Source: Planobispora longispora
GTDB lineage: Bacteria > Actinomycetota > Actinomycetes > Streptosporangiales > Streptosporangiaceae
Reading direction: 5' to 3'
DNA length: 63,091 bases
Assembly: GCF_016863135.1 (NCBI RefSeq)
Contig: NZ_BOOH01000020.1
Coordinates: forward strand, 1-63,091
Below the pieces are notes generated by a model. It was not told where the DNA came from, ran no database searches, and saw only the letters and a list, made by a program, of their open reading frames with translations. Shown here piece by piece: positions 50,966 to 63,091 of this stretch (position 1 is the stretch's first letter; every line of letters starts with the position of its first letter). The position numbers and the translations under genes were made by a program.

Positions 50966-53623
50966 GTGGATGCTCAGTATCCCGCCCACTGGGAGGCGGA
51001 CGTCGTCTTGTCCGACGGGGGCACGGCGCACGTGCGCCCGATCAAGCCCGCCGACGCGGATCGGCTGCGGGCCTTCTACTCCCGGCTCTCCGAGGAGTCG
51101 ATCTACTTCCGCTTCTTCGGGCCCCGGCCCCGGCTGTCGGACCGCGAGGTGACCTGGTTCACCACCGTCGACTACGTGGACCGGGTCGCGCTGATCGCCA
51201 CGATCGGCACGGAGATGGTGGCGGTGATCCGCTACGACCGGATCGAGCCGGGCGAGGCGGAGGTGGCCTTCCTGGTCGAGGACGCCCACCAGGGCCGCGG
51301 CGTCGCCTCGGTGCTGCTGGAGCACCTGGCCGAGACCGCCAGGGAGAACGGCATCGCCAAGTTCGTCGCCGACGTGCTGCCCGCCAACCAGAAGATGATG
51401 GCGGTGCTCAAGCAGGCCGGCTACACCGCGCAGAGCCGCTTCGCCGACGGCGTCGTACGGATGACGCTCGACCTCACCCCGACCGAGACCTCGCAGGCGG
51501 TGACCGCCTCCCGCGAGCACCGGGCCGAGGCCCGCTCCATCGAGCGGCTGCTCACCCCGGGCTCGGTGGCGGTCGTCGGCGCGGGCCGCGAGCCGGGCGG
51601 CGTCGGCCAGACGGTGCTGCGCAACCTGCTCGGCGCGGACTTCACCGGCCCGGTCTACCCGGTCCACCGCGAGGCGCGGGCGGTGGCCGGGGTGCGGGCC
51701 TACCCGAACGTGACGGCCATCGACGGCGAGGTGGACCTCGCCGTGCTCGCCGTACCGGCCGACGCGGTGATCGACGTCGTGAAGGAGTGCGCGGAGAAGG
51801 GCGTGCGCGGGCTGATCGTGGTCTCCTCCGGGTTCGGCGAGACCGGGTCCGAGGGACGGGCCCGCCAGGACGAGCTGGTCCGCATCGCCCGCGCGTACGG
51901 CCTGCGCGTCGTCGGCCCCAACTGCCTCGGCATCGCCAACACCGACCCCGCGGTCCGGCTGAACGCCACCCTCGCCGCGACCATCCCCGGCCGGGGCCGG
52001 GTCGGCTTCTTCAGCCAGTCGGGCGCCCTGGGCACGGCGCTGCTGCAGCGGGTCGCCCAGCGGGGCATGGGCATCTCCTCGTTCGTCTCGGCGGGCAACC
52101 GCGCCGACGTCTCGGGCAACGACCTGCTCCAGTACTGGGAGGAGGACCCGGCCACCGACGTGATCCTGCTCTACCTGGAGTCGCTGGGAAACCCGCGCAA
52201 GTTCGCCCGCCTGGCCCGCCGGATCTCCCGGCGCAAGCCGATCGTGGTGGTCAAGAGCGGCGGCACCACCCAGGGCGTGCCCACCGGTCACGCCGCCCCC
52301 GTGCTCGGCCTGCCCGACACCGCGCTCAGCGCGCTGTTCGAGCAGGCCGGGGTGATCCGGGTGGACGACCTGATCCAGCAGTTCGACGTGGCGCAGCTGC
52401 TGGCCTGCCAGCCGCTGCCTGCGGGGCCCCGGGTCGGCCTGGTGAGCAACTCCGACGCGCTGGCCCTGCTCGCCGTCGACGCCTGCGCGCGGGCCGGCCT
52501 CGAACCGCGCCCGCCGGTCAACCTCGGCGCGCGGGCCGGCGCCGCCGAGTACGGCACGGCCCTGGCCTCCCTGCTGCCCGAGGTGGACGCCGTCGTCGCG
52601 ATCTACATGCCGCCGATCCCGGGCCGGGCCGCCGAGGTCGCCGCCGAGCTGCTGCGCGTCTCCCGGGAGGGCGGCAAGCCGGTCCTGACCACCTTCGAGG
52701 GCAAGCTCGGCATGCCGCCCGAGCTGCGCACCGGCCCCGCCCCCGAGCAGGGGTCGATCCCGTCCTACGCGGCCCCGGAGGAGGCTGTCCGCGCCCTGGC
52801 CCACGTCGTGCGGTACGCGCGCTGGCGCGAGCAGCCCGCGGGGACGCCGGTGGAGATCGGCGACGTGGACGCCGCCGCCGCGCGGGAGCTCGTGGAGCGG
52901 ATGATCGAGAATCCGCCGCACACCGGCCCGCTGCGGGAGATCCCCGGCGAGCACGTCCGGACCGAGGTCGAGGCGTCGGAGCTGCTGGCCCGCTACGGGC
53001 TGACGATCTGGCCCGCCGAGGTGGTCTCCTCGCCGGAGGAGGCCGTGGCCGCGGCCGAGCGGCTGGGCTGGCCGGTGGTGCTGAAGGCCGCCGACCCGGA
53101 GGCGGCCAAGCGGGCCGGGACGGTGCGGCTGGGCCTGGCCGGGCCCGACGGGGTGCGGGACGCCTTCGCGGACCTGACGCGCCAGCTCGGCCCGGACGCC
53201 GTGCTGGCGGTGCAGCGCATGGTGCCCCAGCCCGCGGTGCCGACCGTGGTGAACGTCGTGGACGATCCCGCGTTCGGCGCGGTCGTCTCCTTCGGGCTCG
53301 GCGAGGTGACCGCCCGCCTGCTCCGCGACGAGGTGTACCGGCTCGCCCCCCTGACGCCCGAGGACGCGGCGGCGCTGGTGCGGGCGCCCCGCGCGGCCCC
53401 GCTGCTGTTCGGCGAGTACGGCTACCCGCCGGTCGCGGTCGAGGCGCTGGAGGACCTGCTGGTCCGGGTCGGGAAGCTGGCCGACGATCTGCCCGAGGTG
53501 GCGCGGCTCGACCTCGACCCGGTGCTGGTGGGGGAGTCCGGGGTGATCGTGCTGGGCGCGCGCGCCGTCCTGCGCAGCCCCGAGGGGCCCCGGCCCGACG
53601 ACGGCCCGCGCCGTCTCAGCTGA
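50966..53623 (+). CDS. GNAT / NDP-forming acyl-CoA synthetase fusion (Pat-like protein acyltransferase)
   Basis: An 885-aa protein. The N-terminal GNAT domain (DVVLSDGGTAHVRPIKPADA, VAFLVEDAHQGRGVASVLLE, residues about 10-165) is followed by a CoA-binding Rossmann domain (SVAVVGAGREPGGVGQTVLR), succinyl-CoA-ligase-like domain (GRVGFFSQSGALGTALLQRV) and an ATP-grasp domain (WPVVLKAADPEAAKRAGTVR). E. coli PatZ and Salmonella Pat have these parts with GNAT last; the GNAT-first order occurs in actinomycete PatA-type proteins, which acetylate acetyl-CoA synthetase. The synthetase part is usually inactive; the phosphohistidine region is present near GHAAPVLG. TACTCT (50953-50958) lies 7 nt before GTG 50966, with no Shine-Dalgarno, so it is probably leaderless. 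Confidence 0.88.
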   Translation: MDAQYPAHWEADVVLSDGGTAHVRPIKPADADRLRAFYSRLSEESIYFRFFGPRPRLSDREVTWFTTVDYVDRVALIATIGTEMVAVIRYDRIEPGEAEVAFLVEDAHQGRGVASVLLEHLAETARENGIAKFVADVLPANQKMMAVLKQAGYTAQSRFADGVVRMTLDLTPTETSQAVTASREHRAEARSIERLLTPGSVAVVGAGREPGGVGQTVLRNLLGADFTGPVYPVHREARAVAGVRAYPNVTAIDGEVDLAVLAVPADAVIDVVKECAEKGVRGLIVVSSGFGETGSEGRARQDELVRIARAYGLRVVGPNCLGIANTDPAVRLNATLAATIPGRGRVGFFSQSGALGTALLQRVAQRGMGISSFVSAGNRADVSGNDLLQYWEEDPATDVILLYLESLGNPRKFARLARRISRRKPIVVVKSGGTTQGVPTGHAAPVLGLPDTALSALFEQAGVIRVDDLIQQFDVAQLLACQPLPAGPRVGLVSNSDALALLAVDACARAGLEPRPPVNLGARAGAAEYGTALASLLPEVDAVVAIYMPPIPGRAAEVAAELLRVSREGGKPVLTTFEGKLGMPPELRTGPAPEQGSIPSYAAPEEAVRALAHVVRYARWREQPAGTPVEIGDVDAAAARELVERMIENPPHTGPLREIPGEHVRTEVEASELLARYGLTIWPAEVVSSPEEAVAAAERLGWPVVLKAADPEAAKRAGTVRLGLAGPDGVRDAFADLTRQLGPDAVLAVQRMVPQPAVPTVVNVVDDPAFGAVVSFGLGEVTARLLRDEVYRLAPLTPEDAAALVRAPRAAPLLFGEYGYPPVAVEALEDLLVRVGKLADDLPEVARLDLDPVLVGESGVIVLGARAVLRSPEGPRPDDGPRRLS

Positions 53624-53803
53624 GGGGCTCTTGACCGGCCGGTCGTGTCTGACGGCTTCCACCTGGCGGCCGGCCCGGATGGTCCGGATGGTCCGGGCGT
53701 TCGGGCGGTTCGGGTGGTCCGGGACCGGGTTCGGGCCCGGCGGAGGCCGTACCGAGAGACGCTCGGGATGAAACCGCCACCCCGGACAGGGCAGGATGGA
53801 CCC

Positions 53804-54394
53804 ATGAGGGAAACCCGACTCCCGTCCGCCGGCCTGCGCGACGCGATCGACCGCAGTGGCTACTACCCCGACCTGGTCGCCGACGCGGTCGAATCCGCCC
53901 TGGGCAAGGAGCAGGTGAACGCCTACGTGGTGCACCACGAGGCCACGTTCGACCCGGCCATGGAGGTGCGCAGGCACGTCACCGTGCTGGTGCTCTCGCC
54001 CACCCGGCTGCTCGTCTGCCATACCGACGAGCACCCCGCGGTGGAGGGGGTCTCGGCCGCGCACGCCTCCACGACCACCGAGGCCGTGCGCCTGAGCCGG
54101 ATCCAGTCCGTCGCCGTGACCCGGGTCGTCCCCGACCCCGCCTCCTACGTGCCGGGCGTGCCGCCCACCGAGGTCACGCTCACCATCGGCTGGGGCGCGA
54201 TCTCCCACGTCGACCTGGAGCCGGCCACCTGCGGCGACGAGAACTGCGAGGCCGACCACGGCTACACCGGCGCCATCACGGCAGACGACCTCTCCCTGCG
54301 GGTGAGCGAGGCGGCCGACGGGCCCGAGGCGGTCTCCCACGTGCTGGCCTTCGCCAAGGCGCTGTCCGAGGCGACCGCCCGCGCCGCCTCGTGA
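53804..54394 (+). CDS. DUF5998 family protein
   Basis: A 196-aa protein starting MRETRLPSAGLRDAIDRSGY, with AYVVHHEATFDPAMEVRRHV and a distinctive ATCGDENCEADHGYTGAITA segment. DUF5998 is an actinobacterial family of unknown function that precedes the phosphodiesterase gene found here too. Its TGA overlaps the GTG of the next gene (GTGA), so they are translationally coupled. Confidence 0.88.
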   Translation: MRETRLPSAGLRDAIDRSGYYPDLVADAVESALGKEQVNAYVVHHEATFDPAMEVRRHVTVLVLSPTRLLVCHTDEHPAVEGVSAAHASTTTEAVRLSRIQSVAVTRVVPDPASYVPGVPPTEVTLTIGWGAISHVDLEPATCGDENCEADHGYTGAITADDLSLRVSEAADGPEAVSHVLAFAKALSEATARAAS

Positions 54395-55506
54395 GCCCCC
54401 TCGTCCCGGCGTACGGCGAGGCCTCGCTCGCCGACCTGTCCGCCTCGCTGCTGGCCGTCCTGGGGATGGACTCCGCCAACCCGCTCGGGCTCGCCCCCGC
54501 GGAGCGGATCCTGCTCTTCCTGGTCGACGGCCTGGGCGCGGAGCTGCTGCGCGCCCACCCGGAGACGGCCCCGTTCCTGTCCTCCCGGCTGGACCGGACG
54601 CTCACCGCGGGGTTCCCCGCCACGACCGCGACCAGCCTCGGCACGCTCGGCACCGGCCTGCCCCCGGGCGAGCACGGCATGCTGGGCTACCAGGTCGCCG
54701 TGCCCGGCGCGGGCCACCTGTTCAACTGCCTGCGCTGGACCACTCCCGGCGAGCCGATCGAGCCCGAGGACTGGCAGCCCACCCCGACCGTCTTCGAGCG
54801 GGCGGCGGCGGCCGGGATCTCCGCCAGTTACGTCGGCCCCGCCTACTTCGAGGGCACCGGGTTCAACCGGGCCGTCTACCGGGGCGTGCGCTTCATCGGC
54901 GCCGACGAGGTCGACGACCGGATCGAGGGAGTCCGCCGAGCCCTGGCCGAACCGCGCGCCCACGTGACGGTCTACTACGGCGACCTCGACTCCTTCGGCC
55001 ACCTGTGCGGCTGGGGCAGCCCCGAGTGGCTCGACCAGCTCGCCCTGGTGGACCGGATGGCCGAGCGCCTGGCCGGGACGCTCCCGCCCGGCTCGGCGAT
55101 GTATGTCACCGCCGACCACGGCATGGTCAACGCCGCCGAGCGCGTCGACGTCGACGCGGTCCCCGAGCTGCGCCGGGGCGTCGCCCTGCTCGGCGGGGAA
55201 CCCAGGGCCCGGCACGTCTACGCCGCGCCCGGAGCCGCGGGGGCCGTGCTGGAGACCTGGCGCGGCCTGCTGGCGGGCAGGGCGTGGGTGGCCTCCCGGG
55301 AGGAGGCCGTGGCCTCCGGCTGGTTCGGGCCGCGCGTGCGCGACGAGTGGCTGCCGAGGATCGGCGACGTGGTCGCCGTGCCCAGCGACGACGCCGTCAT
55401 CGTCGCCTCGGAGGCCGAGCCGCTGGAGTCGTCGTTCACCGGATACCACGGTTCGCTGACCCCCGCGGAGCAGTACGTCCCGATGCTGGAGGTGAGCACC
55501 CGATGA
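54391..55506 (+). CDS. Type I phosphodiesterase/nucleotide pyrophosphatase family protein
   Basis: A 371-aa alkaline-phosphatase-superfamily protein: FLVDGLGAELLRAHPETAPF (metal Asp), TAGFPATTATSLGTLGTGLP with the nucleophile Thr, YYGDLDSFGHLCGWGS and YVTADHGMVNAAE (metal Asp/His). No signal peptide, so cytoplasmic. Likely hydrolyses a nucleotide or phosphodiester; substrate unknown. GTG 54391 overlaps the upstream stop by 4 nt and its own TGA overlaps the next ATG. Confidence 0.88.
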   Translation: MSPLVPAYGEASLADLSASLLAVLGMDSANPLGLAPAERILLFLVDGLGAELLRAHPETAPFLSSRLDRTLTAGFPATTATSLGTLGTGLPPGEHGMLGYQVAVPGAGHLFNCLRWTTPGEPIEPEDWQPTPTVFERAAAAGISASYVGPAYFEGTGFNRAVYRGVRFIGADEVDDRIEGVRRALAEPRAHVTVYYGDLDSFGHLCGWGSPEWLDQLALVDRMAERLAGTLPPGSAMYVTADHGMVNAAERVDVDAVPELRRGVALLGGEPRARHVYAAPGAAGAVLETWRGLLAGRAWVASREEAVASGWFGPRVRDEWLPRIGDVVAVPSDDAVIVASEAEPLESSFTGYHGSLTPAEQYVPMLEVSTR

Positions 55507-56315
55507 ACCCGCTGATCACACCCGCGGACCTGGCCGCGCTGGACGGGGCCGTCATCCTCGACGTGCGCTGGAAGCTCGGCGGGCCGCCCGGGCGCGACTC
55601 CTACCGCGAGGGGCACGTCCCCGGCGCGGTCTTCTGCGACATGAACGCCGACCTCGCCGCCCCGGCCGGGCCCGGGGGCCGTCACCCGCTCCCGGAGACC
55701 GGCCGCTTCCAGGAGGCGATGCGCCGCCTGGGCGTCTCCGGCTCCCGGCCCGTGATCGTCTACGACGAGGCCGACGCGATGGCCGCCGCCCGTGCCTGGT
55801 GGACGCTGCGCTACTTCGGCCACTCCGACGTCCGGGTCCTCGACGGGGGCCTGCGGGCCTGGAGAGCCGAGGGCCGCCCCCTCTCCGCGGACGTGCCGGA
55901 GCCCGCGCCCGGCGACTTCACCGCGCGCCCGGGCGGCATGCCCATGCTCGACGCCGACACGGCCGCGAAGCTGGCCTACGACGGCCTGCTCCTGGACGCC
56001 CGCGCCGCCGAGCGATACCGGGGCGAGGTCGAGCCGATCGACCCCGTCGCCGGGCACATCCCCGGCGCGGCCAGCGCGCCCACCACGGAGAACGTCGACC
56101 CCGCCGGCCGCTTCCACCTGCCGGAGTTCCTCCGCGAGCGGTTCAACACGCTCGGCGCGGTCCCCGGCGTCGACGTGGGGGTCTACTGCGGCTCCGGCGT
56201 GACGGCCGCCCACCAGGTGCTGGCCCTGGAGGTGGCGGGCATCCCCGCGGCCCTCTACGTGGGGTCCTGGTCCAACTGGGTGGCCGACCCCTCCCGGCCG
56301 GTCGCCACCGGCTGA
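55503..56315 (+). CDS. Sulfurtransferase (two-domain rhodanese)
   Basis: A 270-aa thiosulfate/3-mercaptopyruvate sulfurtransferase. An inactive N-terminal rhodanese domain (ILDVRWKLGGPPGRDSYREG, GHVPGAVFCDMNADLAAP) and a catalytic one with LLDARAAERYRGEVEPIDPV, GHIPGAASAP and active-site Cys in VYCGSGVTAAH. ATGA overlap with the upstream gene. The final 61 nt overlap, antisense, the 3' end of the convergent CHAT gene. Confidence 0.93.
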   Translation: MNPLITPADLAALDGAVILDVRWKLGGPPGRDSYREGHVPGAVFCDMNADLAAPAGPGGRHPLPETGRFQEAMRRLGVSGSRPVIVYDEADAMAAARAWWTLRYFGHSDVRVLDGGLRAWRAEGRPLSADVPEPAPGDFTARPGGMPMLDADTAAKLAYDGLLLDARAAERYRGEVEPIDPVAGHIPGAASAPTTENVDPAGRFHLPEFLRERFNTLGAVPGVDVGVYCGSGVTAAHQVLALEVAGIPAALYVGSWSNWVADPSRPVATG

Positions 56316-58936
56316 TCGCCGTACCCGAAGCAGACGAACCCGGCGACCCCGCCCAGCCCGGTCCTCCCGCCCGCCAGGGCCAGCGCCCGGGCGGGCGGGT
56401 GACCGGCGGCCAGCAGGCCGTGGAAGGCCGTCATCAGCGTCAGGGTCTCCTCGTCGCGCACCGGCACCAGGCCCGCCACCACGCACCGCGCCCCCCGGTC
56501 CAGGAACGTCCCGGCCAGCCCCAGCGGCGCCCCGTCGGCCGGTGCGCGCGCCATGCCCGTATCGCACGCCGACAGCACCACCAGGCCCGGTGACAGGCGG
56601 AGCCGGAGCAGGTCGTAGGCCATGAGCCGGCCGTCGTCGAGGTCGATGCCGGACAGCAGCGGGCTGTGCGCGCAGAACGTGCCGTGGGCGGCCAGATGCG
56701 CCACCGCCGCCCGCTCCAGCGCCGCCGTGACCGCCCGCCGCGTCGCCGCGACCCGCTCGGTCCCGGGGCGGTGCGCGGCGACCATGCCCGCCTCGGCCTC
56801 CGCGCACCGCACTCCCGGGCCGGCCACCACGACGGTCCCGGCGCCGTTCCCACCCCCGCCGGGTAGGGCGTGCGCGCGGCGCGCGGCCAGCCAGGCGGCG
56901 GCGCTCGCCGCGACGGTCACCGGCCGGTCCGCGTTCGCCGGGAGCGCCGGCCAGGGCAGGGTGTGCAGGGCGCCGGTGGGCACGACCACCAGCGGGCGAT
57001 CGCCCAGCAGGCGCAGGAACGGGCCGAGGACCAGCCGTTCCACCGCGGCGGCCTCCCCCGCCGTGCCGGACGCGGGGCCGTCCCGCAGGTGCGCCCGGCG
57101 CAGGCCGTACCGGAGCCTGACGGTCGCCTCGGCGACGGCGGCGCGGGAACCCAGCCGGCGCAGGGTGATCCGGCCGGGGGTGACGGCCACGGCGACCAGG
57201 TCGTCACCGTGCCGGACGAACTCCACCAGCGCGCTCTCGCCCAGAGCGGCCCGCAACTCCCCGGGATCGGGTGCGGAGGGCCGCCCCGCGCCGCGGACGA
57301 CGGCCCGCCACCGTTCCGCCCAGGCCAGCACTCTCTCGCCCCGGTTCGTCTCCAGCGCGAGGGACAGGCCGAGCCCGGCCAGCGGCTCACCGGCCCGTAC
57401 GGCGTGCGCACGCACCGCGGGATCACTCAGCCGCGCCGCGTCCGCGCCCACCCCGGCCAGCCCCGTGCGGATCGCCGCGAACGCCCCGCGCCGGTCTCCC
57501 GCCGCCGCCCGCCGCAGGGCGGTCGCCTGCCGCGCCACCACCCCCCGCCCGGCCGAGGCGAGCCGGTCGAGCTGCGCGTGCGCGGTGCGGCCGTCACCCA
57601 GGTGGAGCGCGAGCTCCGCGGCGGTGAGCCGGAGGGACTCCGACGGATGACCCGCCGCCTCGAGGTCGCCCGCGCACGACACCATCTCGGCGAGCAGGCC
57701 CGTGCCCCCCGGAGCGTCGCCGGCCGGTCCGGCCGCGGGACGCGTCCGGTGAGGGGAGGGCTCGCCGGGCGGGTCCAGCCGGAGCCGGGCGCGCAGGACG
57801 ATCTCGGTGGCGAGCGGGACCTCGGCCGTCCGCCCCTGGTCGGTCAGCTCCGTCCGGGCCAGCTCCGCGCTGTCGAGGGCGTGACGGAGGTCGCCGGAGC
57901 GCAGCTGAGCCCGGGCGAGCATCAGCCGGGCCTCCGTCAGCGCGGTCTCCGCGCCCGCCGCCGTCAGCTCCGGCACCGCGAGGTCGAGCAGCACCCGCGC
58001 CTCGCCGGGGAGGTGGGCGTCGATCAACGCGCCGGCCAGGTCGCAGCGGACCGTGGCCAGCCGTTCCGGGCAGCCGAACAGGCTCCGCTCCGCGCGCAGG
58101 TAGGCGGCGAACGCCGCGGGCAGGTCGCCTCGCCGCGCGGCCAGGAACGGCAGATTGCCCTCGGCCAGCGCGAGCACGTGCTCCAGTCCCGCCGCCCGCG
58201 CCAGCTCCGCGCTCCGCGCGAGGTCGGTCTCGGCCGCGGCGAACCTGCCGAGGTAGACGCAGGCCAGTCCCCGGTTCAGCATCGCCCCGGAGAGGAAGAC
58301 GGGATCGTCGCCGAGGAGGCTCTCTGCGCGGTCGCAGTGGCGGATCGCCTCCTCGTGGCGGCCCAGCCGGATCAGGGCCGCCGCCCGGTTCACGCCGAGC
58401 CTGGCCGTCTCGGCCGGGGTGAGGTACGGCTCGGCCTCCAAGCCGACGGCCAGGGCCTGGCGGGGACGGCCCAGCTCGGCCTGGACGGCGACGAGCGAGA
58501 GCCGGGCCTGGGCCGCCCGGTGCGGCATCCCGGCCGTGAGCGCGATGTCCACGGCCCGGTCCAGGTGCTCCTCGGCCAGGGGCAGGTCGCCCAGCTCGCG
58601 CGCGGCCAGGGCCAGTGCCCGGTAGGCGATCGACGCCGCCTCAGCCCCGGACCCGGCCGACGCCGCTTCGATTCCCAGGGCGTCCAGCACGGAGCGCGCC
58701 AGGTCTCCGGCGGCGGCGGGGTCGTCCGCGGCCATGCGGACCGCGCGTTCGGCGGCCCGGACGGGACCTGCGTCGGCGCGGCCGGAGAGATCGTCGGTGT
58801 GGATGGAAGGGGCACCGGTGCGGCCGGAGAGATCGTCGGCCTGGCCGGGAAGACCGCCGGCGTGATCGGGGAGGGCGGTGGTGTGACCGGGGAGGGCGGT
58901 GGTGTGACCGGGGAGGCCGGCGGGGACGGCGGTCAA
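56255..58936 (-). CDS. TPR-CHAT protease (caspase-like, HetF associated with TPRs)
   Basis: A cytoplasmic protein of about 893 aa. After a 7-residue repeat leader (units like LPGHTTA, LSGRTGA) come about nine TPR-like helical hairpins (residues roughly 75-480, e.g. AVQAELGRPRQALAVGLEAE, LIRLGRHEEAIRHCDRAE), then a CHAT peptidase domain with catalytic His751 (HLAAHGTF) and Cys791 (VVLSACDTG) and the terminal FVCFGYGDQP. CHAT proteases cleave partner proteins after TPR-mediated activation. TTG 58936 overlaps the stop of the 151-aa gene (TTGA); GTG 59005 and ATG 58735 are alternatives. It is the last gene of the subtilase-sigma-partner-CHAT operon. Confidence 0.88.
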   Translation of the reverse strand: MTAVPAGLPGHTTALPGHTTALPDHAGGLPGQADDLSGRTGAPSIHTDDLSGRADAGPVRAAERAVRMAADDPAAAGDLARSVLDALGIEAASAGSGAEAASIAYRALALAARELGDLPLAEEHLDRAVDIALTAGMPHRAAQARLSLVAVQAELGRPRQALAVGLEAEPYLTPAETARLGVNRAAALIRLGRHEEAIRHCDRAESLLGDDPVFLSGAMLNRGLACVYLGRFAAAETDLARSAELARAAGLEHVLALAEGNLPFLAARRGDLPAAFAAYLRAERSLFGCPERLATVRCDLAGALIDAHLPGEARVLLDLAVPELTAAGAETALTEARLMLARAQLRSGDLRHALDSAELARTELTDQGRTAEVPLATEIVLRARLRLDPPGEPSPHRTRPAAGPAGDAPGGTGLLAEMVSCAGDLEAAGHPSESLRLTAAELALHLGDGRTAHAQLDRLASAGRGVVARQATALRRAAAGDRRGAFAAIRTGLAGVGADAARLSDPAVRAHAVRAGEPLAGLGLSLALETNRGERVLAWAERWRAVVRGAGRPSAPDPGELRAALGESALVEFVRHGDDLVAVAVTPGRITLRRLGSRAAVAEATVRLRYGLRRAHLRDGPASGTAGEAAAVERLVLGPFLRLLGDRPLVVVPTGALHTLPWPALPANADRPVTVAASAAAWLAARRAHALPGGGGNGAGTVVVAGPGVRCAEAEAGMVAAHRPGTERVAATRRAVTAALERAAVAHLAAHGTFCAHSPLLSGIDLDDGRLMAYDLLRLRLSPGLVVLSACDTGMARAPADGAPLGLAGTFLDRGARCVVAGLVPVRDEETLTLMTAFHGLLAAGHPPARALALAGGRTGLGGVAGFVCFGYGDQPVATGREGSATQLDQDPT
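58790..58932. repeat. 21-bp tandem repeats at the 5' end of the CHAT gene
   Basis: About seven 21-bp units, the leftmost-transcribed ones nearly identical (TGGTGTGACCGGGGAGGGCGG on the plus strand, two exact copies). They begin directly after the stop codon of the 151-aa gene and are translated in the CHAT frame as 7-residue repeats. Confidence 0.75.
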
Positions 58937-59388
58937 GGCCCGATCCGGGTCCAGACCGTCGCGACGGGGGGACCGTCCGGGCGGTGGCAGACCACGCTGA
59001 ACCACCCGGGGGGCAGGCCGGTCACGGCGAACCGGCCGGCCGGAGAGAGGTCGCGCGACTCGGTCAGGCGGGGGGTGCGGACCTCGACCAGGGCTCCCGC
59101 CCCGGGATGGGGGGTGATCTGCCCGGCCAGATCGACCAGCCCGGCCGAGGGCTCGATCTCCAGGTCGAGGACGAGTCCGTCCGCGCCGAACCGGAGCAGG
59201 CGGTCCCGCCCGGCGGAGCGCACGCCGGACGGGGCGGGCACGGCGACCGGCCGGGCCACGGCGGCGCCCGGCAGCCGGAGGGCGAAGGCGGCCCGGGCGG
59301 CGGCTGAGACGCGCTCGGGCACGGGGTCGAGCCCCGAGGCCAGGCGGAGCGCGGCGATCAGGGCCTCGTCGTCGGGAGGGTGCGGCAT
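58933..59388 (-). CDS. 151-aa ECF-sigma partner protein (putative anti-sigma/adaptor)
   Basis: Starts MPHPPDDEALIAALRLASGL at ATG 59388, overlapping the sigma stop by one base (TGATG), and ends at the TTGA overlap with the CHAT gene. The N-terminal ~45 residues form an amphipathic helix pair (VPERVSAAARAAFALRL) like those of small sigma-associated proteins; the rest is beta-rich (LVLDLEIEPSAGLVDLAGQI, FAVTGLPPGWFSVVCHRPDG), recalling a carboxypeptidase-regulatory-like fold. No zinc motif typical of ZAS anti-sigma factors. Its place between sigma and protease makes it a candidate substrate or sigma binder; this is inference. Confidence 0.72.
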   Translation of the reverse strand: MPHPPDDEALIAALRLASGLDPVPERVSAAARAAFALRLPGAAVARPVAVPAPSGVRSAGRDRLLRFGADGLVLDLEIEPSAGLVDLAGQITPHPGAGALVEVRTPRLTESRDLSPAGRFAVTGLPPGWFSVVCHRPDGPPVATVWTRIGP

Positions 59389-59957
59389 CACGGCGCGGCC
59401 TCCGGTGCGAGCATGGCGCGGAGCCGGTCGAGGCAGCGGCCCCGGGTGGGACCGTAGCTGCCGGCGGGCATGCCCAGGCGGCCGGCCAGCTGGCGCACGC
59501 CCGCGTCGGGGGCCTGCGCCATCAGGCGCAGCAGCGACCGGCAGGGCTCGTTCATGCTCTCGACGGTCAGCCAGAGGCGGCGTCCCTCGTCGGCGGTCAG
59601 CACGGCCAGCGCCGGGTCGGCGTGGGCCTGCTCGGGACCGGGCGGCCCGTCCGGCTCGACCGGATCGGGGACCAGCCGTTCGTCCCGGTTGCGCCTGCAC
59701 AGCAGCGACGCCTCCCGCCTGGCGGTGGTGAACAGCCAGGAGCCGATCCGCTCGGGGTCGCGGATGCCGGGCAGGTGCTCGACCAGCCGCAGCCAGGCGC
59801 CCTGCGCCGCGTCGGCCGCGTCCGCCGGGCTCAGGCCGTAGGAGCGGACCGCGGACCAGACGAGAGGGCTCAGCCGTTTGACCATCGCGTCCCAGGCCGC
59901 CTGGTCGCCGTCCAGGACGGCGTCGATCGTGTGCCGGTCGATCACCCGGTCCTCCAT
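59388..59957 (-). CDS. ECF-type RNA polymerase sigma factor
   Basis: A 189-aa sigma-70 family protein: region 2 (MVKRLSPLVWSAVRSYGLSP, DAAQGAWLRLVEHLPGIRDP, RIGSWLFTTARREASLLCRR) and region 4 (RLWLTVESMNEPCRSLLRLM, VRQLAGRLGMPAGSYGPTRG). It should direct RNA polymerase to a private promoter set. ATG 59957 lies 49 nt after the subtilase stop; the stop overlaps the partner gene. Confidence 0.92.
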   Translation of the reverse strand: MEDRVIDRHTIDAVLDGDQAAWDAMVKRLSPLVWSAVRSYGLSPADAADAAQGAWLRLVEHLPGIRDPERIGSWLFTTARREASLLCRRNRDERLVPDPVEPDGPPGPEQAHADPALAVLTADEGRRLWLTVESMNEPCRSLLRLMAQAPDAGVRQLAGRLGMPAGSYGPTRGRCLDRLRAMLAPEAAP

Positions 59958-60006
59958 GATCGCGTCAGGTGCGCAAAGTGTTCATGGGATTACCCGGAGT
60001 GAGACT

Positions 60007-61065
60007 TTACCGGGAGATCGGCACCACGGTTCCCAGCCCGGGGATCCGCCGGGCGCGCTCCGGGTCCAGCACGCGGTCCACCGCCTCCGCCGGCGGCATC
60101 GTGGCGGCGGCTGCCGCGATCACGCCGCTGACCGCGGCGGCGGCGAAGGAGGTCCCGCTCCATCGCGCGTAGCCCCGGAAGGCCCCGTGCTCCAGGAAGG
60201 CGCTGGACAGCCACTCTCCCCGCGCGCAGGCGTCCACCCACGGGCCGTGGGCCGAGAACGGCGCCCGGGTCTCCTCGGCGGCGTCCAGGGCGCCGACGGC
60301 GGTCACCCCGGGGAGCGCGGCCGGCCAGAAGGGGCGCTCCGAGGCGGTGTTGCCCGCGCAGGCGACCACCGCCGTGCCGGTCAGCTCCTCCAGGGCCGCC
60401 TGGACCAGAGGGGAGGGGCGGTCGTCGAAGGTGTGCCCGCCGAAGGAGAGGTTGACCACCTGGGGAGGGGCGTCCCGAAGGCGGGCCAGGGCCCGCAGCA
60501 GTCCGGCCTCGTCCCCGACGCCGTGGCCGTCCAGCACCCGGACCGGGCGCAGTCGCGCGCCCGGGGCCGAACGCAGGACCAGTCCGGCAATGAACGTGCC
60601 GTGCCCCGCCTGGGCGTCCAGTTCGCCGTCGCCGTCGCCGTCGGAGTCCGGCGGCTCAGGCCCGTCGTGGCGCCCTTCCCGGAACCAGGGGCTCTCCCGC
60701 CACCACGGGTGCGCGGCCACGCCGGTGTCGAGCACCGCCACGGTCACGGGGCTCTCGCCGGGAGGAGGCGCGGGGACCGGGTCGGCGGGAAAGGGCCGGG
60801 AGGCCGGACCTCCGAAGAAGAGAGGCTGGCCCCGCAGGACGTGGTTGGCGGAGGCTCGGTGACCCCGGTCCCTGAGCGTGGTCGCCAGATCGCAGACATC
60901 CACGCCGGGCGAGAGGCGGAGCCGGAAGAGGCCCTCGGCCTCGGTCACCGCGGCGGTCCAGCGCGCCGCGGCCTCCGCTCCGGGGGCGTCGGTCAGTATC
61001 TGGCCCGGTCTGATCAGAGCGGGTGAGCCCGGGACGGGTTCGACCCGTTCGATGTCGGCGTCCAT
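60007..61065 (-). CDS. Cytoplasmic S8 (subtilisin-family) serine protease
   Basis: A 352-aa protease with an intact triad: Asp113 (VAVLDTGVA), His155 (AGHGTFIAG) and Ser306 (SGTSFAAA), plus oxyanion Asn239 (ACAGNT). There is no signal peptide; the first ~100 residues (DADIERVEPVPGSPALIRPG) could be an inhibitory or sensing prodomain, and an Asp/Gly-rich loop (SDGDGDGELD, 141-150) may bind calcium. ATG 61065 with GGAGG upstream. It is the first gene of the operon ahead of the ECF sigma gene, so it may process a regulator within the cell. Confidence 0.9.
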   Translation of the reverse strand: MDADIERVEPVPGSPALIRPGQILTDAPGAEAAARWTAAVTEAEGLFRLRLSPGVDVCDLATTLRDRGHRASANHVLRGQPLFFGGPASRPFPADPVPAPPPGESPVTVAVLDTGVAAHPWWRESPWFREGRHDGPEPPDSDGDGDGELDAQAGHGTFIAGLVLRSAPGARLRPVRVLDGHGVGDEAGLLRALARLRDAPPQVVNLSFGGHTFDDRPSPLVQAALEELTGTAVVACAGNTASERPFWPAALPGVTAVGALDAAEETRAPFSAHGPWVDACARGEWLSSAFLEHGAFRGYARWSGTSFAAAAVSGVIAAAAATMPPAEAVDRVLDPERARRIPGLGTVVPISR

Positions 61066-61205
61066 ATGTCCTCCGGTCCGGTGTCCGTCGAGATCTGCTT
61101 CCCGAACGATGCCGCATGCCCACGGCGCGGAGCGGTGAACTCCCGGGTTTCCGCCGTGTCCGCCGGGGCGTCGCGATCCCGGCGGTGTCCGGGACGATTC
61201 AGAGT

Positions 61206-61245
61206 TTTACCTTTTGTTCGAGAACAAGATCGAACAAAAGGTAAA
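61206..61245. promoter_or_regulatory. 40-bp AT-rich palindrome with perfect 16-bp arms
   Basis: TTTACCTTTTGTTCGA (61206-61221) and TCGAACAAAAGGTAAA (61230-61245) flank an 8-nt spacer GAACAAGA. It lies 140 nt before the subtilase-sigma-CHAT operon and 195 nt before the divergent DUF3145 gene. Its AT content is exceptional here. Not the order of a LexA site (GTTCGA precedes TCGAAC). Likely operator or structured leader. Confidence 0.7.
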
Positions 61246-61335
61246 GTCGCACTCCGCGACCGCGGTGGGATGGTGAAATCCGTACCTGCTCGTACGGCGC
61301 CCGCGCGGAACGCGCCATCTTGGTATGACCGCCCT

Positions 61336-61365
61336 CTGGTGCGATGTCGCAACCGACGGTAGTCT
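61336..61365 (+). promoter_or_regulatory. Promoter candidate for the DUF3145 gene
   Basis: CTGGTG (61336-61341), 18-nt spacer, TAGTCT (61360-61365), about 75 nt before the GTG start. Confidence 0.4.
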
Positions 61366-61440
61366 CTCCTTCAGTCACTTGTGATCATCCGCGGACGAGG
61401 CCGTTGGGGAAGGCGCACCTCGTACGAAACGGGAGGTCCG

Positions 61441-61935
61441 GTGTCTGCTCGTGGCGTGCTTTACGTCCACTCGGCTCAGCCCGCGCTGTGCCCTCATATC
61501 GAATGGGCGGTCGCGGGCGTCCTTGGCGTGCCTGTAGACCTGACGTGGACGCCCCAGCCCGCCGCGCCCGGTCATGTGCGCGCACAGGCCGAATGGCAGG
61601 GTCGCCCGGGAACCGCGGCGGCCATCACCTCGTCGTTGATGGGTTGGCAACGCATCCGCTTCGAGGTGACCGAGGACGCCTCCCCGGAGGCCGACGGCTC
61701 CCGTCACGCCTACACCCCGGCCCTGGGCGCCTTCACGGCGGTGATCGGGGCCAGCGGCGACATCATGATCCCTGAGGACCGGTTGCGTTCGGCCATGTTG
61801 CTGGCCCGCCAGGGCAGAGTGGTGCTGGAGGAGGAGCTGGACCGCATGCTGGGCCGGCAGTGGGACGAGGAGCTTGAGTCGTTCCGTTACGCGGGCGAGG
61901 GAGCGCCGGTCCGCTGGCTGCACGCCGCCGTCTGA
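61441..61935 (+). CDS. DUF3145 family protein
   Basis: A 164-aa protein of the actinobacterial DUF3145 family: MSARGVLYVHSAQPALCPHI, SLMGWQRIRFEVTEDASPEA, GASGDIMIPEDRLRSAMLLA and a C-terminal WDEELESFRYAGEGAPVRWL. Full length for the family; function unknown. GTG 61441 with GGGAGG 7 nt upstream. Confidence 0.93.
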   Translation: MSARGVLYVHSAQPALCPHIEWAVAGVLGVPVDLTWTPQPAAPGHVRAQAEWQGRPGTAAAITSSLMGWQRIRFEVTEDASPEADGSRHAYTPALGAFTAVIGASGDIMIPEDRLRSAMLLARQGRVVLEEELDRMLGRQWDEELESFRYAGEGAPVRWLHAAV

Positions 61936-62049
61936 GTCTCACCCGCCCCCTCCCGGTACGGGTCCCGCCTTCCCGAAGCCTTCCCGGTACGGCAGCGCCT
62001 CCTAAGCCTTCCCGGTGCTGCCGTACGACGGGGCCCGCAGGAGACGCGC

Positions 62050-62337
62050 TCAGGCGAGCAGGAATTTCAGGCGGTCGTCGGCCAGCTGCGGCGCGATCTC
62101 CACGATCTCCGCGCTGACGACGCCCTCGGCGACGAACGGGTCGGCCGCCACGCGGCTCTCCAACTCCTCCCGCGACGTGCCGTGTGCCACGATCGCGCCG
62201 CCCAGCCCCGGCTGGATGCCGCCGACCAGCAGGAACACGCCGTCGTCGACGCCGCGCTCGATCCATTCCCGGTGGCCGGGCATGTGCTGACCGGCGGCGC
62301 CCTTGTTTGCGGAGAACCGCAGCAACACCACGAACAT
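62050..62337 (-). CDS. YciI-like (YCII domain) protein
   Basis: A 95-aa protein, MFVVLLRFSANKGAAGQHMP, with the YCII Asp-His region HREWIERGVDDGVFLLVGGI and VAADPFVAEGVVSAEIVEIA. The fold resembles dimeric ferredoxin-like enzymes; substrates are unknown. ATG 62337 has GAGAGG upstream. Follows the TetR gene by 34 nt, so in one operon and probably under its control. Confidence 0.85.
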   Translation of the reverse strand: MFVVLLRFSANKGAAGQHMPGHREWIERGVDDGVFLLVGGIQPGLGGAIVAHGTSREELESRVAADPFVAEGVVSAEIVEIAPQLADDRLKFLLA

Positions 62338-62371
62338 GTAAGACCTCTCGGAATCGTTGAACTCGGGTGTG

Positions 62372-62983
62372 TCAGGCATCGGCCTGAGCGCCGTCCCCGG
62401 GGGCGGCGCTCAGGGCGCCGGCGGAGTACGCGCTCAGCCATTCATGCATCCGCTGGACTTCGCGGTGGATGAAGTCCTCGTCCCGGAAGGCGTGCGCCAG
62501 CGTGGCGACGCCCTGGCTGAAGGCCAGCACGTGCATCGCCAGCGCGTCGGCCTGCGCCGGGTGCCCCAGCTGCGTGAACTGCTCGCGCAACCACGCGCGG
62601 AAGAGCGTGAACAGGCCGCCGGCGTCGTCCAGTGCGGGATGGCCGAGCTTGGCCAGCTCCGTGGTCAGGGTGCCCACCGGGCAGCCGTACCTCTGGATGT
62701 CGGCGCGGTTGGTCACCACGATCTCGACGAACCTGCGGATCCGGTCTGCGGGGTCGGTCTCCTCGGCCTCCCACCGCTCCAGCATCCGCCGACGGCTCTC
62801 CAGTCGCGCGGCGATCACCGCGCTCAGGATGTCGTCCTTGGATTTGAAGTGGTAGTAGAAGTTCCCCCGCGAGATGTGAACAGCCTCGGCGATCGCCGCG
62901 AAGGATGTGTGCTCATAACCCTGCCGATAGAACAGCCGGTCGGCCGCCTCGACGATATGAGCCCGGGTCGTCGCCGCGCCCAC
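62372..62983 (-). CDS. TetR/AcrR family transcriptional regulator
   Basis: A 203-aa regulator. The helix-turn-helix reads HIVEAADRLFYRQGYEHTSF, AAIAEAVHISRGNFYYHFKS (residues about 9-48), followed by a ligand domain with a single Cys in IQRYGCPVGTLTTELAKLG, as in the YcdC/AcuR-like TetR_C group. GTG 62983 (GGGAGG upstream) is chosen because the upstream frame would run through two operator palindromes. Autorepressor with the YciI-like gene as target is likely. Confidence 0.9.
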   Translation of the reverse strand: MGAATTRAHIVEAADRLFYRQGYEHTSFAAIAEAVHISRGNFYYHFKSKDDILSAVIAARLESRRRMLERWEAEETDPADRIRRFVEIVVTNRADIQRYGCPVGTLTTELAKLGHPALDDAGGLFTLFRAWLREQFTQLGHPAQADALAMHVLAFSQGVATLAHAFRDEDFIHREVQRMHEWLSAYSAGALSAAPGDGAQADA

Positions 62984-63025
62984 TGCCCCACCTCCCGCAC
63001 TGCCCGGCCGCCTGACGGAACTCTT

Positions 63026-63041
63026 TAGGACACCTGTCCTA
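63026..63041. promoter_or_regulatory. TetR operator, proximal copy
   Basis: TAGGACA-CC-TGTCCTA, perfect 7-bp arms, 43 nt before the TetR start. Confidence 0.75.
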
Positions 63042-63051
63042 GAGGGCATAT

Positions 63052-63067
63052 TAGGACAGGCGTCCTA
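63052..63067. promoter_or_regulatory. TetR operator, distal copy
   Basis: TAGGACAGGCGTCCTA (six-bp arms plus a near match), centred 26 bp from the proximal copy; the pair suggests cooperative dimer binding. Confidence 0.72.
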
Positions 63068-63091
63068 AACGATGTCAACCGGCCCCGGCCG

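Follow-up and report, generated by a model that had tools for sequence, protein, structure and literature searches.

The ECF54 group comprises actinobacterial ECF sigma factors with no recognised anti-sigma factor, and section 3.3 of the 2022 review PMC8999054 describes its genes as conserved together with genes for a 'carboxypeptidase', a subtilase and a CHAT protein. The review also notes a proposal that proteolysis, with no anti-sigma factor involved, controls these sigma factors; it cites Casas-Pastor 2021 and Huang 2015 for the group, and its table names SFT86700.1 from Geodermatophilus amargosae. A second point of comparison is type III-E CRISPR, for which the portion of PMC10028731 that treats the system describes Csx30 as an ECF sigma factor inhibitor that Csx29 cleaves. 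How does a four-gene locus of Planobispora longispora compare with these systems? Throughout, the window is the whole stretch of 63,091 nt that was analysed, in which the following features were located.

Positions 60007 to 61065, minus strand: S8 subtilase of 352 aa (Pfam Peptidase_S8, 6.1e-28) with the triad Asp113/His155/Ser306.
Positions 59388 to 59957, minus strand: ECF sigma factor of 189 aa (Pfam Sigma70_r2, 3.8e-12; TIGR02937, 48.5 bits at a cut-off of 42.9).
Positions 58933 to 59388, minus strand: 151-aa partner protein, the proposed sigma regulator by structure model and alignment, encoded directly 3' of the sigma gene in 136 of 140 loci.
Positions 56255 to 58936, minus strand: TPR-CHAT protease of 893 aa with a TTG start (Pfam CHAT, 1.5e-32, and TPRs), with His751/Cys791.
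Positions 61206 to 61245, no strand assigned: perfect palindrome (arms of 16 bp, spacer of 8 nt) lying 141-180 nt before the S8 start, a candidate operator or hairpin.
Positions 61381 to 61935, plus strand: DUF3145 gene (Pfam, 8.5e-70), the divergent flank and not part of the switch.
Positions 55503 to 56315, plus strand: rhodanese gene (Pfam, 7.7e-26), the convergent flank and likewise outside the switch.

Read leftward, the operon runs from the S8 subtilase through the ECF sigma factor and the 151-aa protein to the TPR-CHAT protease. A gap of 49 nt separates the S8 and sigma genes, the sigma and 151-aa genes overlap by 1 nt (TGATG; 4 nt if a GTG start is used), and the 151-aa and CHAT genes overlap in TTGA, while an alternative GTG start at 59005 would extend the CHAT protein to 916 aa. 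Open reading frames, Pfam and alignments agree with the four-gene order, gaps, overlaps and residue numbers given in an earlier note on this DNA. The S8 triad is unchanged in 29/29 aligned S8 sequences, and of 112 aligned CHAT sequences 111 retain His751 and Cys791 and one has a gap there (114 sequences were collected and 2 left out as too short). With the sigma family profile, alignments to solved, full-length ECF sigma factors were obtained. No operon protein has a stretch hydrophobic enough for a typical signal peptide or membrane helix (the Kyte-Doolittle mean over 19 residues reaches 1.6 at most); none looks secreted or membrane-bound, and both proteases are predicted to be cytoplasmic. 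No Inhibitor_I9 propeptide was matched by Pfam at the S8 N-terminus in 29 members. At the other end of the operon, the 3' ends of the CHAT gene and of the rhodanese gene that converges on it overlap by 61 nt (56255-56315).

Set beside the ECF54 description, the locus has an ECF sigma factor of the expected architecture (189 aa, TIGR02937 above cut-off), no recognised anti-sigma domain, and a context of CHAT, subtilase and 'carboxypeptidase' genes, the last appearing only as CarboxypepD_reg and below threshold in the window protein. The likeness drawn here is one of architecture and gene context. The gene set is thus already in print as the ECF54 context, and the literature searched held no other description of it. 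For this reason the idea in the earlier note is less new than it had been taken to be. The 'carboxypeptidase' of the ECF54 context presumably corresponds to the 151-aa family.

Conservation of the gene set was assessed in three overlapping sets of loci (L031 and L071, for example, are probably one record), in which the small gene follows the sigma gene directly on the same strand in 136 of 140 cases (40/40, 80/80 and 16/20). The set of 40 was taken from 64 small-protein places listed in relatives and holds mostly the top-scoring ones. The set of 80 represents the best 80 of 419 relatives found when named genomes were scanned with an alignment of sigma sequences; since that alignment was itself built from sigma genes next to small proteins, the scan partly depends on them. 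The set of 20 distant loci was partly picked because no sigma gene had been noticed nearby. Among the 136 pairs, a CHAT gene lies near 128 (same strand downstream in 111, opposite strand in 11, same strand upstream in 6, absent in 8) and a subtilase gene near 114 (same strand upstream in 103, elsewhere in 11, absent in 22). The set of 80, the best of the 419 relatives, draws on Planobispora, Planomonospora, Streptosporangium, Nonomuraea, Microbispora and their kin, all of Streptosporangiales, and includes 3 MAGs. In this set the small gene is directly downstream of the sigma gene in 80/80 loci, its start codon overlapping the sigma stop in 67/80, with CHAT in 77/80 and the subtilase in 71/80. 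The three loci that lack CHAT (L086, L131 and L142) are on stretches that stop 0.3-1.1 kb past the sigma gene or shortly after the small gene. Chance neighbourhood was considered as an explanation and rejected, the gene set being conserved across loci: the window genome (8.84 Mb) has 3 CHAT places and 19 S8 places, and a CHAT gene would be expected within 9 kb of a given gene in about 0.6% of cases, as against 77/80 for the sigma-query loci.

The subtilase is absent from 8 of 79 assessable loci, L141 being left out because its stretch breaks off too early to judge. Seven of the eight have no more than about 620 nt between the sigma gene and DUF3145, so the subtilase gene is simply missing; in the eighth (L143) the gap between the sigma gene and DUF3145 is about 1.7 kb. 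These loci belong to Acrocarpospora (4), Herbidospora (1), Sphaerisporangium (1), Nonomuraea (1) and a MAG (1), and since the subtilase is missing in several genera it is probably accessory. A dispensable subtilase gives no support to the part of switch protease for which the earlier note had considered it.

Co-occurrence was examined in 60 related genomes, where the small protein is matched in 45 by the single sequence and in 46 by the profile; phylum-wide it is present in at least 47 of 396 sampled genomes, with nine candidates scored per genome. Both the small protein and any CHAT domain are found in 45 of the 60 relatives, the small protein alone in 1, where a contig boundary truncates its gene, CHAT alone in 4 and neither in 10 (Fisher p 1.4e-7, uncorrected for shared ancestry). 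Of the 65 small-protein places, 53 have a CHAT place within 10 kb, and of the 143 CHAT places, 53 have a small-protein place within that distance; the other 12 small-protein places include some on short contigs. Most genomes carry one small-protein gene, as the window genome does, and two genomes of the same genus carry three (G001) and four (G003). The module is real, conserved and kept together in many actinobacteria, just as the earlier note's four-gene order and co-occurrence would have it. Because the sigma/small pair is constant while CHAT and S8 genes move or drop out, the pair looks like a fixed core, with CHAT as a near-constant companion and the subtilase as an accessory.

What kind of protein is the constant partner of the sigma factor? 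Its sole Pfam match is CarboxypepD_reg, sub-threshold at E 0.051, a model also matched at E <= 0.1 by 15/33 and 53/74 members of the small-protein family. No anti-sigma family was matched by the small protein in Pfam, NCBIfam or PADLOC, or by its relatives in Pfam, so that its earlier description as a protein without a known anti-sigma motif stands. The predicted structure consists of a well-ordered Ig-like beta-sandwich and low-confidence N-terminal helices (7-17 and 29-35), which look as a partner-dependent segment could. Judged by this model, the protein is probably a non-catalytic sandwich and not a carboxypeptidase. The rationale for treating it as a candidate for the missing sigma regulator is the combination of the modelled beta-sandwich, the flexible helical N-terminus and the usual translational coupling to the sigma gene. 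Against solved structures, the family profile finds no match better than E 0.79, and a fold search with the small protein returns generic sandwiches only and no specific structural relative; a Csx30-like fold is not among the fold matches listed, an absence that excludes nothing. Two family members are longer than the usual length of about 150 aa (392 aa in L045 and 194 aa in L049) owing to long low-complexity insertions in the sandwich region, perhaps at an exposed loop.

From the observed conservation of the genes, their coupling and the catalytic residues, together with the predicted fold of the small protein, we infer binding, cleavage, a signal, a regulon and a part for each protease in an ECF54-type sigma switch gated by proteolysis, where the small protein would act as the regulator and CHAT as the protease that cuts it. 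The sigma factor and the 151-aa protein, made together from overlapping genes, would form the core pair, in which the small protein holds the sigma factor, probably via its N-terminal helices. The TPR part would sense a signal and switch on the CHAT protease, which would then cleave the small protein and free the sigma factor to transcribe its own operon and perhaps others. The subtilase, in an accessory role, would sharpen the response or bring it to a close. This switch is supported by the sigma/small pair, fixed in 136/140 loci while other genes move, by the start/stop overlap in 67/80 loci, by the co-occurrence of small protein and CHAT in 45 of 60 relatives, and by the weak Csx29-like sequence of the CHAT protein, given that Csx29 cleaves the sigma inhibitor Csx30 in the account of PMC10028731. 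The sole match at E <= 0.01 of the CHAT protein to solved structures is Csx29 (7y9x, E 0.0055), and the Csx29 model finds one place in the whole genome, this CHAT gene, at 24.5 bits under a curated cut-off of 300 (22.1 bits in the NCBIfam scan); the likeness is limited to the CHAT domain and does not amount to Csx29 membership. Cleavage of a sigma inhibitor by CHAT in the manner of Csx29 and Csx30 would fit the anatomy. The earlier note's reading of CHAT and the sigma factor as a switch has accordingly gained from gene linkage, intact catalytic residues, the Csx29 match and the sigma/small coupling (67/80).

Several observations weaken the switch, namely the existence of small genes without a sigma gene of their own (L181-L184, L186 and L187), the 12 of 65 small-protein places without CHAT within 10 kb, the generic nature of the sandwich, and a covariation control that behaves like the pair of interest. 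With all of this weighed, we regard the switch model as evenly poised between right and wrong. As to covariation, 3 column pairs among 139 sigma/small protein pairs exceed the best of 20 re-pairings within broad clusters, 1 column pair is left with finer clusters, and the sigma/S8 control gives 4 column pairs above its re-pairings. Covariation did not discriminate for a sigma/small partnership, because the sigma/S8 control behaves alike. No fusion of any two of the four proteins, which would have spoken for a partnership, occurs in open frames at 180 loci, and the sigma and small genes share one frame in 0/80 loci.

A different hypothesis is the published view of ECF54, according to which the proteases degrade the sigma factor itself and keep it low, no anti-sigma factor takes part, and a response follows when degradation stops. 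Section 3.3 of PMC8999054 puts this forward as a proposal, and it is consistent with two proteases that are intact and cytoplasmic by prediction and with the lack of a match to any known anti-sigma domain. However, degradation of the sigma factor gives the small protein no role, yet this protein is the most constant neighbour of the sigma gene (136/140) and coupled to it (67/80), and the 'carboxypeptidase' is predicted as a non-catalytic sandwich, which together make the published view an unlikely account of the locus.

The control regions bear on another hypothesis, in which the small protein chiefly serves the CHAT/subtilase pair as substrate, adaptor or effector, and the sigma factor, unbound by it, controls expression only. 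A pattern resembling AGAGCC-N13/14-TGATACAG lies between divergent S8 and CHAT genes in L060, L061, L069, L189, L199 and L231-L234, and in L187 it precedes a lone small gene; it is a candidate shared regulatory element with no clear genome-wide excess. The form GAGCC-N12-16-TGATAC was found 6 times among the loci fetched, always upstream of a gene belonging to the module, and 6 genomes of a single family have it, variants included, in the region separating divergently oriented S8 and CHAT genes. Counted over 14 whole genomes it barely outnumbers its own reverse (31 versus 25), and it is absent from L236, a tested genome that belongs to another family, and from the window operon. A candidate element shared by divergent protease genes in some lineages would agree with the substrate or effector hypothesis, as would S8/small/CHAT sets without a sigma gene of their own (L181 and L182) and small genes without a paired sigma gene (L183, L184, L186 and L187, one of them on a 6.8-kb contig). 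The sigma-less loci are few (4/140), however, and come from the 20 distant loci that were partly picked as exceptions. We find this hypothesis improbable. In L181 and L182, extra S8, small and CHAT genes (2 or 3 small genes, 2 CHAT and 2 S8) accompany a single sigma gene, as though the module had undergone duplication with its sigma factor kept single. The palindrome upstream of the S8 gene recurs in diverged forms in L072, L073, L074 and L076, that is, with the window, in 5 of 71 upstream regions, and its 81-nt stretch gives an RNA fold z of -4.2; no RNA family reached gathering score in window positions 53000-63091. A two-box enumeration over 96 upstream regions found no module-wide promoter motif that stood out from the shuffled control (best log10 p -5.6, control -5.0).

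In the nearest relatives the module occupies a fixed site beside DUF3145. Because DUF3145 (78/80 and 26/40 loci) and the rhodanese gene (71/80 and 21/40 loci) recur beside it, the chromosomal site appears to have been passed on vertically. A mobile island was considered and is unlikely, given these fixed flanks.

CHAT and subtilase domains occur in defence systems, and PADLOC returns generic matches to subtilase (3.4e-11) for the S8 protein and to BovA (7.1e-6) for CHAT. One could therefore suppose an antiphage or self-killing module, in which a sensed invader activates the proteases and the sigma factor drives a defence regulon, and a parallel to Craspase as presented in the available portion of PMC10028731 points the same way. 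The evidence from the genomes is against it: the module has a fixed position between housekeeping-like genes (DUF3145 in 78/80, rhodanese in 71/80) and mostly one copy per genome, and no CRISPR-like repeats were found in window positions 40000-63091, where the only direct repeats are two 2-copy families of 21-24 nt. We consider a defence module very improbable, and the phage cue that the earlier note had allowed for the switch loses ground, its PADLOC matches being generic and the fixed chromosomal position speaking against a mobile defence island.

How, then, does the proposed sigma switch stand among described systems? Like ECF54, it involves an actinobacterial ECF sigma factor with no recognised anti-sigma factor in a context of CHAT, subtilase and 'carboxypeptidase' genes. 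Relative to that section of PMC8999054, the third gene is read here as encoding a translationally coupled, probably non-catalytic sigma partner and not a peptidase, and two points are added: the subtilase is lost more readily than CHAT, and the module keeps to one chromosomal site. No characterisation of the small-protein family as sigma regulators was found in the literature searched. If correct, the switch would explain how ECF54 sigma factors, described as having no anti-sigma factor, are controlled, and bacterial caspase-like proteases would control transcription outside CRISPR via a soluble family of sigma regulators, in a module whose parts occur in culturable soil actinomycetes. With Craspase (Csx29/Csx30/CASP-sigma), in the portion of PMC10028731 that covers it, the locus has in common that a TPR-CHAT protease, an ECF sigma factor and one more protein are encoded together. 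It differs in that its CHAT protein fails the Csx29-type cut-off, a subtilase is added, the small protein has no sequence relative among solved structures, and no CRISPR array lies beside the module (only the two 2-copy repeat families in window positions 40000-63091). The families matched by the seven flanking proteins scanned are others than Cas7-11. The caspase/EACC2/ECF sigma conflict systems, in the part of PMC8195603 that describes them, likewise couple a caspase-like protease to an ECF sigma factor; their EACC2, TRADD-N-linked proteins and DUF1822 TPR protein are not among the Pfam matches here. Proteolysis of an inhibitor as the switch would, if the model is right, be shared with RseA/RpoE and RsiW/SigW as they figure in PMC10028731, whereas the parts here look soluble and cytoplasmic and the operon includes no membrane anti-sigma factor. 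A broader hypothesis, which we judge rather doubtful, is that ECF54 modules are the counterpart, on the chromosome and independent of RNA, of the Csx29-Csx30-CASP-sigma switch and possibly gave rise to it. In them the caspase-like CHAT protease would cleave a new soluble anti-sigma family, with the subtilase as the other protease, in a cytoplasmic stress pathway widespread among actinobacteria.
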